Below, in pieces: positions 57,378 to 61,304 of a stretch of DNA of 64,000 bases; the stretch's first letter is position 1, and every line of letters begins with the position of its first letter. The stretch spans positions 496,001 to 560,000 of the forward strand of contig NZ_JAMQON010000001.1 of assembly GCF_031624395.1 (NCBI RefSeq), in the 5' to 3' direction. The notes beneath the pieces were generated by a model. It saw only the letters and a list, made by a program, of their open reading frames with translations. It had not been told where the DNA came from and searched no databases. The DNA comes from Halomicroarcula saliterrae. GTDB taxonomy: Archaea; Halobacteriota; Halobacteria; Halobacteriales; Haloarculaceae. The position numbers were made by a program, and so were the translations under genes.

Positions 57378-58034
57378 ATGGAAGAGCGTTCCCGGGCCGG
57401 CGTCCGCCGAACGTACGAGCGCATCGGCGACCACTTCTCGAAGACCCGCGAGTACGCCTGGCCCGAGGTCGAAGCGTTCGTCGACGACGCCGCCGGCTGC
57501 GAGACGGCGCTGGACCTTGGCTGTGGCAACGGCCGCCACGCCGCGCTCCTGACCGACGTGGCCGACCGCGTCGTCGGGCTGGACGCTAGCCGCGCGCTGC
57601 TCGCCGAGGCCCGGCGGCGCCTCGGTGACAGCACGACCCTCGTGCTGGGCGACGCCTCCCGGCTCCCGCTGGCCGCCGATAGCGTGGACCTCGCCGTCTT
57701 CGTCGCGACGCTCCATCACCTCCCCTCGGCCGCCGACCGGCAGGCCAGCCTCGCCGAACTCGCTCGCGTGCTCGCCCCCGGCGGCCGAGCCCTCGTCAGC
57801 GTCTGGAGCACGGCCCACGACCGCTTCGACGCCCCCGCAGACGCCGAGACGGGGTTCGATACCACCGTCGACTGGACGCTCCCCGGCGGCGAGCGAGTGC
57901 CCAGATTCTACCACATCTACGCGCCAGCGGAGTTCGAGCGCGAGCTCGCCGACAGCGGGCTGGCGACGGTGTCGTTCGAGCTATCGAGTGGCAACTGCTA
58001 CGCCGTGGTCCGGTCCGAAGGGAAAGGTCCTTAA
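57378..58034 (+). CDS. Trm9-like SAM-dependent tRNA methyltransferase
   Basis: 218 residues from the ATG at 57378. The N-terminus TYERIGDHFSKTREYAWPEVEAFV corresponds to the Trm9/ABH8 opening (AxHFSxTRYxxWPxVxxFL). SAM-binding motif I ALDLGCGNGRHAALL and post-I VVGLDAS follow, then HHLPSAADRQASLAELARVLAPGG. Trm9 proteins methylate the carboxymethyl group on wobble uridine with Trm112. It lies 139 bp before a tRNA-Gly with a wobble U (UCC anticodon), a possible substrate. Specificity is inferred. Confidence 0.78.
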   Translation: MEERSRAGVRRTYERIGDHFSKTREYAWPEVEAFVDDAAGCETALDLGCGNGRHAALLTDVADRVVGLDASRALLAEARRRLGDSTTLVLGDASRLPLAADSVDLAVFVATLHHLPSAADRQASLAELARVLAPGGRALVSVWSTAHDRFDAPADAETGFDTTVDWTLPGGERVPRFYHIYAPAEFERELADSGLATVSFELSSGNCYAVVRSEGKGP

Positions 58035-58049
58035 TCACGTTCCGTTTAT
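58029..58049 (+). promoter_or_regulatory. Only evident promoter-like DNA upstream of tRNA-Gly
   Basis: CTTAATCACG and TTTATCACC are the only A/T-rich elements before tRNA-Gly. They sit about 27-33 bp before the first GCGGCGGTGGT copy (58062), the expected box A distance, but about 125-145 bp before the true tRNA start. Overlaps the methyltransferase stop. Confidence 0.45.
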
Positions 58050-58054
58050 CACCG

Positions 58055-58146
58055 AGTGAGCGCGGCGGTGGTGAGCAACTCAACGAGTTGCGAACGACGC
58101 CGCGAATGCGATGAGCGGCGGTGGTGAGCAGTTCCGCAGGAACTGC
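58055..58146 (+). repeat. Partial tRNA-Gly 5'-end repeats with 3-nt-loop hairpins
   Basis: GCGGCGGTGGT, the tRNA-Gly 5' end, occurs at 58062-58072 and 58115-58125 before the genuine one at 58174-58184. Copies 1 and 3 share 18 nt (58055-58072 and 58167-58184). Copies 1 and 2 are each followed by GAGCA and a perfect hairpin: GCAACTC-AAC-GAGTTGC (58075-58091) and GCAGTTCC-GCA-GGAACTGC (58128-58146). No ORF. Confidence 0.85.
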
Positions 58147-58173
58147 GAGCCTCGCTGTGCGAACGAAGTGAGC

Positions 58174-58244
58174 GCGGCGGTGGTCTAGTGGTAGGACCTG
58201 AGCCTTCCAAGCTCATGGCCCGGGTTCAAATCCCGGCCGCCGCA
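58174..58244 (+). tRNA. tRNA-Gly (TCC)
   Basis: Acceptor GCGGCGG (58174-58180) pairs with CCGCCGC (58237-58243), discriminator A 58244. Anticodon arm TGAGC-CTTCCAA-GCTCA gives anticodon TCC. T-arm CCCGG-GTTCAAAT-CCCGG is intact. No intron and no encoded CCA. No TATA-like DNA at the normal distance; the sequence there is the repeated element. Its 3' 16 nt are repeated at 58413-58428. Confidence 0.95.
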
Positions 58245-58490
58245 TTTTGCTGCGAGCAAATCGCGAGCAGCAAATGCTGAACAGAGAGATTTGAACCCTA
58301 CGAGTCGCAGTGCGCGCAGCGAACGGAGTGAGCGAGCACAACCGTCTTCGCGTGGTTCAAACACCGACGGACTCCGTCCGTCGAGGCTCGCGAAACCTCC
58401 GGTTTCGCTCACTCCCGGCCGCCGCATTCTGCGAGCCATACGGGAGCACCCGTCGAACCGGAGACACTACCGCCGAGAGAATCGGGGCCG
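58245..58490 (+). repeat. tRNA-Gly 3'-flank element with duplicated tRNA 3' end
   Basis: Begins with TTTGCTGC...GCAGCAAA (58246-58274). A minus-strand T-arm-like AGGGTTCAAATCTC is at 58299-58286. GGTTCAAA, as in the tRNA T-loop, is at 58354-58361. Hairpins CGACGGAC-TCC-GTCCGTCG (58365-58383) and GCGAAACC-TCC-GGTTTCGC (58390-58408) follow, then TCCCGGCCGCCGCATT (58413-58428), identical to 58231-58246. So the T-loop and 3' end of a tRNA-Gly copy flank a two-hairpin insert. No coding content seen. Confidence 0.8.
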
Positions 58491-58865
58491 CTACCGCTCG
58501 ACCGACTCCCAGGTGTCCGAACTGATGGTCGCGTCGGGGTTGTCGGCGACGGCGACGGTGAGCGTGTCCTCGGTCTCCGTACTGACCAGTTCGACCCGAC
58601 CGCTGTCACTCGCGGGCCCGCTTGGCAACTCGGCGGGCCGCTCGGTGGCCTGCGCTCGCGTCACGCCGCGTTCCGACGCCCCGTCGGGCTGGGCCGTCTC
58701 GCCGGACTGGCCGTCGGCCGGCGTCCCGGCGCCGAAAATCGCTCGGAGCGCCGACTTCAGCCCGGAGAGAAACCGCCGGATGGGAGTGTCCTCACCCGGT
58801 CCCGTCCGGGGTGCCGTCGGACCGTCACCCCGCGGCTCGTCGAGGGGTATGAGACTCATGCGCAT
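58491..58865 (-). CDS. Hypothetical protein
   Basis: 124 residues (ATG at 58865 or 58859). The N-terminal part is Pro/Gly-rich, then IRRFLSGLKSALRAIFGAG predicts an amphipathic helix and the C-terminus VELVSTETEDTLTVAVADNPDATI is beta-like. Third-position GC is high, but no family is recognised. It lies between the tRNA-Gly element and an HD-domain gene on the same strand. Confidence 0.45.
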   Translation of the reverse strand: MRMSLIPLDEPRGDGPTAPRTGPGEDTPIRRFLSGLKSALRAIFGAGTPADGQSGETAQPDGASERGVTRAQATERPAELPSGPASDSGRVELVSTETEDTLTVAVADNPDATISSDTWESVER

Positions 58866-61152: not shown

Positions 61153-61226
61153 GGGCGTGTGGCCTAGTGGACGAGGGTGAGGGGTTCCTAACCCCTAGAG
61201 CGCGGGTTCGAATCCCGCCACGCCCG
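61153..61226 (+). tRNA. tRNA-Arg (CCT)
   Basis: Acceptor GGGCGTG (61153-61159) pairs with CACGCCC (61219-61225), discriminator G 61226. Anticodon arm AGGGG-TTCCTAA-CCCCT gives CCT. T-arm GCGGG-TTCGAAT-CCCGC. No intron. It decodes the rare AGG codon. The final 14 nt plus one flanking T are repeated 77 bp downstream at 61290-61304. Confidence 0.94.
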
Positions 61227-61264
61227 TCTCGTTCGTGACACTCACTCGACGCGCGTGGCGACCA

Positions 61265-61304
61265 TCGCGAAACCTCCGGTTTCGCTCAGTCCCGCCACGC
61301 CCGT
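61265..61304 (+). repeat. 24-nt hairpin block plus copy of tRNA-Arg 3' end
   Basis: 61265-61288 is identical over 24 nt to 58388-58411 after tRNA-Gly and holds the hairpin GCGAAACC-TCC-GGTTTCGC (61267-61285). One base later, 61290-61304 (TCCCGCCACGCCCGT) repeats 61213-61227, the tRNA-Arg 3' end. Same order as at tRNA-Gly, with a different tRNA sequence. Confidence 0.88.

Follow-up and report, generated by a model that had tools for sequence, protein, structure and literature searches.

The 64-kb window, that is, the whole stretch of Halomicroarcula saliterrae DNA that was analysed, carries a tRNA-Gly(TCC) gene that is followed on the same strand by several hairpins and by copies of parts of the tRNA itself (Table 1). 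The first-pass annotation had described a downstream duplication of the tRNA 3' end, split at the T-loop by two hairpins, and all the coordinates that it gave for this locus proved exact. The window contains exactly two occurrences of the 3'-end sequence TCCCGGCCGCCGCATT, at positions 58231 and 58413; the T-loop half GGTTCAAA lies upstream of the second occurrence, at 58354; and the 51 nt between the two pieces (58362-58412) contain two hairpins, each with a perfect 8-bp stem and a 3-nt loop (58365-58383 and 58390-58408). A single hairpin would be unremarkable here, because the window is generally hairpin rich, with 23 hairpin rows (arms of at least 8 nt and loops of 3 to 5 nt, a few listed twice) compared with 4 to 12 in eight first-order Markov simulations of the window. 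It is the combination of the hairpins with the copy of the tRNA 3' end that is remarkable. Three further parts of the arrangement were absent from the earlier annotation, namely, hairpin 1 (58246-58274), an inverted copy of the T-arm (58288-58298), and core 1 (58300-58353). The grammar of such a module is X ... X' - core hairpin - X, where X is a copy of the tRNA's own 3' end and X' is an inverted copy. The inserted hairpins represent a second core type within this same grammar.

Table 1. Features of the tRNA-Gly(TCC) and tRNA-Arg(CCT) loci (window positions)
Feature	Position	Strand	Description
Upstream mirror module	58062..58103	+	tRNA 5' end GCGGCGGTGG - TGAGC hairpin - CGCCGC
Second upstream module	58115..58158	+	more degenerate
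tRNA-Gly(TCC)	58174..58244	+	source of X (T-arm and acceptor 3' strand); Rfam RF00005, 71.4 bits
Hairpin 1	58246..58274	+	8-bp stem, GAGC...GCGA loop with tandem G.A mismatches
X' (T')	58288..58298	+	inverted copy of tRNA T-arm, GATTTGAACCC
Core 1 hairpin	58300..58353	+	AGTCGCA ... ACCGTCT
5' half of direct T-arm copy	58354..58361	+	GGTTCAAA
Hairpin A of two-hairpin unit	58365..58383	.	
Core 2	58388..58412	+	TC-GCGAAACC-TCC-GGTTTCGC-TCAC; contains hairpin B, 58390-58408
X (A2)	58413..58428	+	copy of tRNA T-stem 3' strand and acceptor 3' strand, TCCCGGCCGCCGCATT
tRNA-Arg(CCT)	61153..61226	+	
X' of Arg module	61253..61260	+	GCGTGGCG, complement of CGCCACGC
Core 2 at tRNA-Arg	61265..61289	+	hairpin 61267-61285 identical to 58390-58408
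X of Arg module	61290..61304	+	TCCCGCCACGCCCGT, copy of tRNA-Arg 3' end

On the other side of the gene, the hairpins between 58062 and 58158 begin with a copy of the tRNA 5' end, and the same arrangement is seen upstream of tRNA-Gln in this genome. By eye, a similar upstream module precedes tRNA-Gly(TCC) in most of 30 loci of the genus, where these hairpins come after a conserved promoter-like stretch (GAAGGGAAA..CTTAAT); judging from this order, a long, structured leader may be part of the pre-tRNA. The possibility that the upstream hairpins are kink-turns was weighed but not retained. The sequence GCGAACGAAGTGAGC, located at 58159-58173, at 58319-58334, and at other haloarchaeal loci, is a minimal GARC-loop-GYGA hairpin with tandem G.A mismatches and a covarying inner pair.

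About 3 kb away, the hairpin of the tRNA-Arg(CCT) module is followed by TCAG (4 nt) and then by a copy of the tRNA-Arg(CCT) 3' end. The core 2 pattern, TCGC-arm-loop-arm-GCTCA plus one letter followed by the own tRNA's TCCC...acceptor, was found 16 times in 77,623 nt (450 nt downstream of 174 tRNAs), compared with 3 and 4 times on the two strands of 87,678 nt of control sequence. In 15 of the 16 cases, spread over three families, exactly 4 nt separate the hairpin from the own tRNA's 3' end (11 to 14 of 14 letters), and in 7 of these 15 a T-loop half lies 36 to 52 nt upstream, as in the window. The seven tRNA types concerned are Gly-ccc, Lys-ttt, Gly-tcc, Arg-cct, Ala-ggc, Ala-cgc, and Ser-gga; the first-pass annotation had named the lack of a similar block at other tRNAs as grounds against its reading, and such blocks clearly exist. 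Among the 30 tRNA-Gly(TCC) loci of the genus, the strict pattern matches only the locus in the window, with diverged relatives recognizable by eye at L006, L010, and L011. That annotation had pictured a hairpin element entering a copy of the tRNA. The joining of a hairpin unit exactly at the T-loop/T-stem border does recur, but the picture of a single duplicated tRNA with a single insert was not supported, the 3'-end copy being itself part of the module. The locus in the window is, by a slight balance of probability, a composite of two family members, with a core 2 unit sitting at the T-loop/T-stem border inside the X copy of a core 1 module; it could have arrived there by entry into a pre-existing copy or by recombination of tandem modules.

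Own-end copies were counted in four genomes from three families: the genome of the window (G000), one of the same genus (G005), and two from two other families (G095 and G058). The last 30 nt of each tRNA plus one were scored against the 450 nt downstream of the same gene, with a cutoff of ≥15 and using the flanks of the 174 genes listed by the model; the downstream flanks of all other tRNAs in the genome (swapped pairs) and the gene's own upstream flank served as controls. Own downstream copies were present at 17/44, 21/44, 16/40, and 14/46 genes, 68/174 in total or 30 to 48% of the tRNA genes per genome, compared with 1.0 to 1.4% of the swapped pairs (1.1% in the window's genome) and none of the 174 upstream flanks (0/44 in the window's genome). 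The count for G095 is low, because at least three module-bearing tRNA genes (an intron-bearing one, Gln-ctg, and Pro-cgg) are absent from its list. For the window's genome, one tRNA lacking an ARAGORN label was counted all the same, and 14 of 58 tRNA hits, which form a dense array (C1:884102-887987), were excluded. This array (L381, G000:C1:884000-888200, 14 Rfam hits) is probably viral or plasmid borne. Leu-tag, Val-tac, Arg-gcg, and Tyr carry copies in each of the four genomes, while 23/44 to 32/46 genes per genome have no copy and the set of carriers shifts between species. Gene by gene, the window's genome and G005 share 12 modules (P = 0.017, with the unlabelled gene entered as Trp by assumption).

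Within 600 nt downstream of the tRNAs, 100 copies were found (26, 28, 25, and 21 by genome), and the modules measure 67 to 194 nt. In class I modules (84 eligible) the copy runs from the T-arm on, whereas in class II modules (about 15) it starts at the T-stem 3' strand. In the genus, the copies at tRNA-Gly(TCC) track a C/T variant of the tRNA: they match the tRNA with C in 6/6 and that with T in 9/12 cases (Fisher P = 0.009, kinship among loci being ignored). Identity runs on past the tRNA end for 1.77 nt, compared with 1.05 nt in a within-genome shuffle. Of 116 genomes of the order, many had two to four spaced matches to a conserved tRNA-Leu 3' pattern, among the hits listed. In an archaea-wide scan with a tRNA-Gly 3'-end pattern, the only strong downstream own copy among 32 usable loci, again among the matches listed, was L120 of Halorientalis persicus; L150 from the same scan scored 13 downstream and 23 upstream. 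Concerted evolution within genomes was also considered, and core identity was only slightly higher within (0.607) than between genomes (about 0.58), so that no claim is made.

An inverted T-arm (8/9 or better) lies upstream of the T-arm copy in 59 of the 84 class I modules, compared with 0.5% of shuffles. Its base opposite position 57 follows that position in the own tRNA (A-T 29, A-C 6, G-T 2, G-C 14; P = 2.6 × 10^-6, with one module per gene, kinship ignored, and 2 of 53 rows that were neither A/G versus T/C falling outside the 2-by-2 table). At tRNA-Ala(ggc), the inverted arm GGACTCG complements the 3' strand and differs from the real 5' strand, GGGCTCG, and it is therefore a reverse copy rather than a copy of the 5' strand. 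The core 1 helix, in 41 distinct sequences, has 93.7% standard pairs compared with 75.6% in column shuffles and 49 double-changed cells compared with 15.0, a value reached in 0 of 500 shuffles, and its covariation score is 0.438 compared with 0.111; these counts include related sequences, and the shuffle figures are not probabilities. Controls with slid strands pair at 36 to 43%. At the stem position adjoining AG/CU, C-G (14), G-C (16), A-U (6), and G-U (2) account for the pairs among the 41 sequences, the shuffle mean being 18.5 paired, and a U.U mismatch (AGUCG/CGUCU) is retained in most of them. In the GARC...GYGA loops (44 instances in 39 of the 100 modules), the pair inside the tandem G.A mismatches likewise varies (G-C 22, A-T 20, G-T 1, A-C 1). 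Overall, the median folding-energy z score is -3.7, with 82 of the 100 modules below -2, compared with -0.09 in 60 control segments.

From 41 modules, a covariance model of T'-core-T2 (R1) was derived, which gave 105 hits at an E value of ≤0.01 in the four genomes, to which its figures on placement relative to tRNAs refer; many of these hits are the model's own training sequences, and the wider genome search is the independent test. In the window, R1 matches 58288-58364 (G000:C1:554288-554364, E = 1.3 × 10^-8) and a core-only model matches 58300-58350 (C1:554300-554350, E = 2.3 × 10^-5), the outer stem of core 1 being weaker here than in its relatives. Of the 105 hits, 87 share the strand of a listed tRNA and follow it at a distance of 24 to 504 nt, and three more follow unlisted tRNAs (identified by Rfam at L368 and by ARAGORN at L369, Gln, and L372, Pro), giving 90/105. 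Two others (L377 and L382) adjoin tRNA-like 3' copies at the ends of contigs, another (L380) lies at tRNA-Ser(cga) in antisense orientation, and the last 12 are elsewhere or weak. The dense tRNA array mentioned above contains one R1 hit (C1:886055), and at tRNA-Val(gac) of G095 four follow in a row (1837039 to 1837541; L383, G095:C1:1836800-1838000), one of the longest arrays. Of the 59 genomes sampled from the class, at least 56 contain R1 hits, among the matches listed. In a sample of the phylum, under strict filters, it was present in 12/12 genomes of the order and in 0/68 others. The family is found order-wide in Halobacteriales. At several non-tRNA sites (L373-L375, L379, and L415-L417) the X/X' rule holds weakly or not at all. 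In G058, a larger structured repeat is present in five copies (L373, L374, L375, L379, and L416), each some 250 nt long by eye; they open with gactgaaagggg, close with ggggctttct, and contain a core 1 hairpin away from tRNA genes.

Between nuoB and nuoC, 30 of 32 genomes have no insert (29 with a bare stop/start overlap and G003 with a 6-nt gap), including G048 from the genus of G095 and both G000 and G003 from the genus of G005. G095 and G005 themselves have an opposite-strand insert of about 80 nt, in which the start region is repeated on both sides (a direct repeat of 10 nt in G095 and 6 nt in G005), an inverted TGAGTA adjoins core 1, and a core-2-like hairpin is present. Such a precise insert with a duplicated target suggests mobility. 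A core downstream of aspS in G095 is similarly flanked by an exact 9-nt direct repeat of the gene end, the inverted arm being weak. At tRNA-Gly, L016 has no module, the flank resuming directly after the tRNA, and L023 has two. A hybrid, L024, combines hairpin 1 of one L023 module with the core of the other, and L288 (G066) is an A-B-A array; recombination of tandem modules is indicated by both. The empty nuo and tRNA sites can be explained by gain or by precise loss through recombination between the direct repeats, which yields the same empty sites, and they are therefore no proof of gain. Apart from the modules, elements have integrated at tRNA-Gly(TCC) and displaced the resident module in G003 (L284, G003:C15; an element of about 1.2 kb) and in G019 (L283/L282, with the tRNA and attR on two contigs).

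The reading that we favour, and to which we give slightly more credence than not, is that the modules are non-autonomous, target-copying palindromic elements that are kept as structured RNA or single-stranded DNA. Each module of 67 to 194 nt consists of X as a direct and X' as an inverted copy of the local sequence, usually the adjacent tRNA 3' end, around a core of one of the two conserved hairpin types. Insertion would probably proceed via an intermediate that is single stranded and folded, with X' paired to X, and the target would be copied in both senses; tandem copies could then grow, shrink, and mix through recombination between the direct X repeats and be homogenised later. The module grammar, the specificity for the own target, the covariation, the taxonomic range, the bias to tRNA 3' flanks, and the precise presence or absence of an insert at nuoB-nuoC are directly observed. 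From these we infer mobility, and insertion with target duplication, as part of the best explanation. A bolder form of it, possible though doubtful, is a minimal mobile nucleic acid able to rewrite its arms to suit each new target: the core would move as folded single-stranded DNA or RNA, copy its landing site forward and backward, and grow arrays behind tRNA genes across the order in the manner of an integron or a CRISPR locus, with the tRNA 3' end as the repeat. Several points speak against a mobile element. The length of X is variable (6 to 10 nt at nuo and 14 to 29 nt at tRNAs), unlike a fixed target duplication; the gene-wise sharing with G005 is in keeping with inheritance or a role in the host; covariation is usually a sign that an RNA is under selection, and purely selfish DNA needs none; and the X/X' rule falters at several sites outside tRNA genes.

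The strongest rival, which is compatible with the mobile-element reading, is that the modules are structured RNAs that serve the host in the pre-tRNA trailer. Transcribed together with the tRNA, hairpin 1, X'-core-X, and a pyrimidine run would guide termination, 3' processing, or quality control, and X' could pair with the tRNA T-arm or with a decoy X copy. The covariation in core 1 and in the GARC...GYGA loops, the position of 90/105 model hits directly behind tRNAs and on their strand, the way in which T' tracks its own tRNA, and the four tRNAs with copies in every genome all argue for such a function, which we nevertheless rate as rather unlikely: about half or more of the tRNA genes in each genome do without a copy, the carriers differ between species, a module can be missing at the same tRNA in a close relative (L016), and the opposite-strand inserts at nuoB-nuoC require a separate account. 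It is also conceivable that no enzyme is involved and that replication slippage and template switching at palindromes made the modules, with unequal crossing-over then spreading tandem repeats. Inverted and direct local copies around hairpins, the hybrid and A-B-A arrays, the identity running past the tRNA end, and the tRNA-Ala arm that complements the 3' strand are all in line with this, but the recurrence of one and the same pair of core types, conserved motifs included, at many tRNAs and in several families, as well as the nuo insert, would be left unexplained, and we regard mutation alone as improbable. Decayed attachment-site scars of tyrosine-recombinase elements come to mind as well, since tRNA 3' ends are described as common archaeal attachment sites (PMC8371274), and real integrations do occur at the same tRNA in G019 and G003. 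However, these integrations leave copies of 48 to 54 nt that reach the anticodon arm, with the resident module intact beyond attR, and an integrase scar was rejected as the main cause on this account; neither the inverted own arm nor the covarying cores nor the repeated 67- to 194-nt spacing is predicted by it, and we consider scars very improbable.

Membership in a known RNA family was considered and rejected. An Rfam cmscan of 57900-58700 with E values of up to 1 returned only tRNA, mascRNA-menRNA, and Atu_L6, with no RF00391 and with tRNA alone exceeding the gathering score, and at 13 loci of model hits Rfam returned one tRNA and nothing else. In phage records, the sole match was a Sulfolobus spindle-shaped virus, within the tRNA part. 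A limited search of the open-licence literature found no account of such modules, and the family is apparently undescribed. If mobile, it would be a target-copying element without a known enzyme, and if a host RNA, it would add an unknown layer to tRNA 3' biology; these possibilities can be tested in genetically tractable haloarchaea. In either case, partial tRNA 3' copies need not indicate an integrated virus or plasmid, which is a warning for annotation.

Among known systems, the 178-bp repeats of Escherichia coli tyrT (rtT RNA, Rfam RF00391) lie in tandem behind a tRNA gene and each end in a copy of that tRNA's 3' end. The haloarchaeal modules share this tandem arrangement, in which the 3' end of the neighbouring tRNA is copied; however, the tyrT repeats belong to a single operon in enterobacteria, whereas the modules occur at many tRNAs and order-wide, with two core types and inverted arms. 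Mitochondrial double-hairpin, or repetitive hairpin-forming, elements are small mobile hairpin units and thus resemble the modules in form, although we know of none with direct and inverted arms copied from its own target. The ends of IS200/IS605 elements, REP/RAYT systems, and integron attC sites combine a guide or inverted arm, a hairpin, and a cleavage site and are recognised as folded single strands. The arm-hairpin layout is common to all of these, but the haloarchaeal arms are 6 to 14 nt long and change with each target. Compared with integrons, modules of 67 to 194 nt leave little room for open reading frames, and the spacers between the repeats carry conserved cores, unlike CRISPR spacers. 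In the literature on integration, partial tRNA copies are described as integration products and casposon duplications as lying in another register (PMC3119063, PMC9897764, PMC6977970, and PMC8371274). Integrase attachment sites in tRNA genes, as these sources present them, likewise have a partial 3'-end copy downstream, but there it flanks kilobase-sized elements (PMC8371274 and PMC3119063) and not 67- to 194-nt modules with conserved cores, and the module copies do not resemble those left by integration at tRNA-Gly(TCC). Casposons are similarly archaeal and similarly duplicate their target at tRNA 3' ends; at tRNA-Leu, the duplication covers 14 to 15 bp, made up of the last 4 bp of the tRNA and 10 bp outside it (PMC6977970), whereas the haloarchaeal copies are 14 to 29 nt long, lie mostly inside the tRNA rather than overlapping only its last bases, and are accompanied by an inverted copy within the module.
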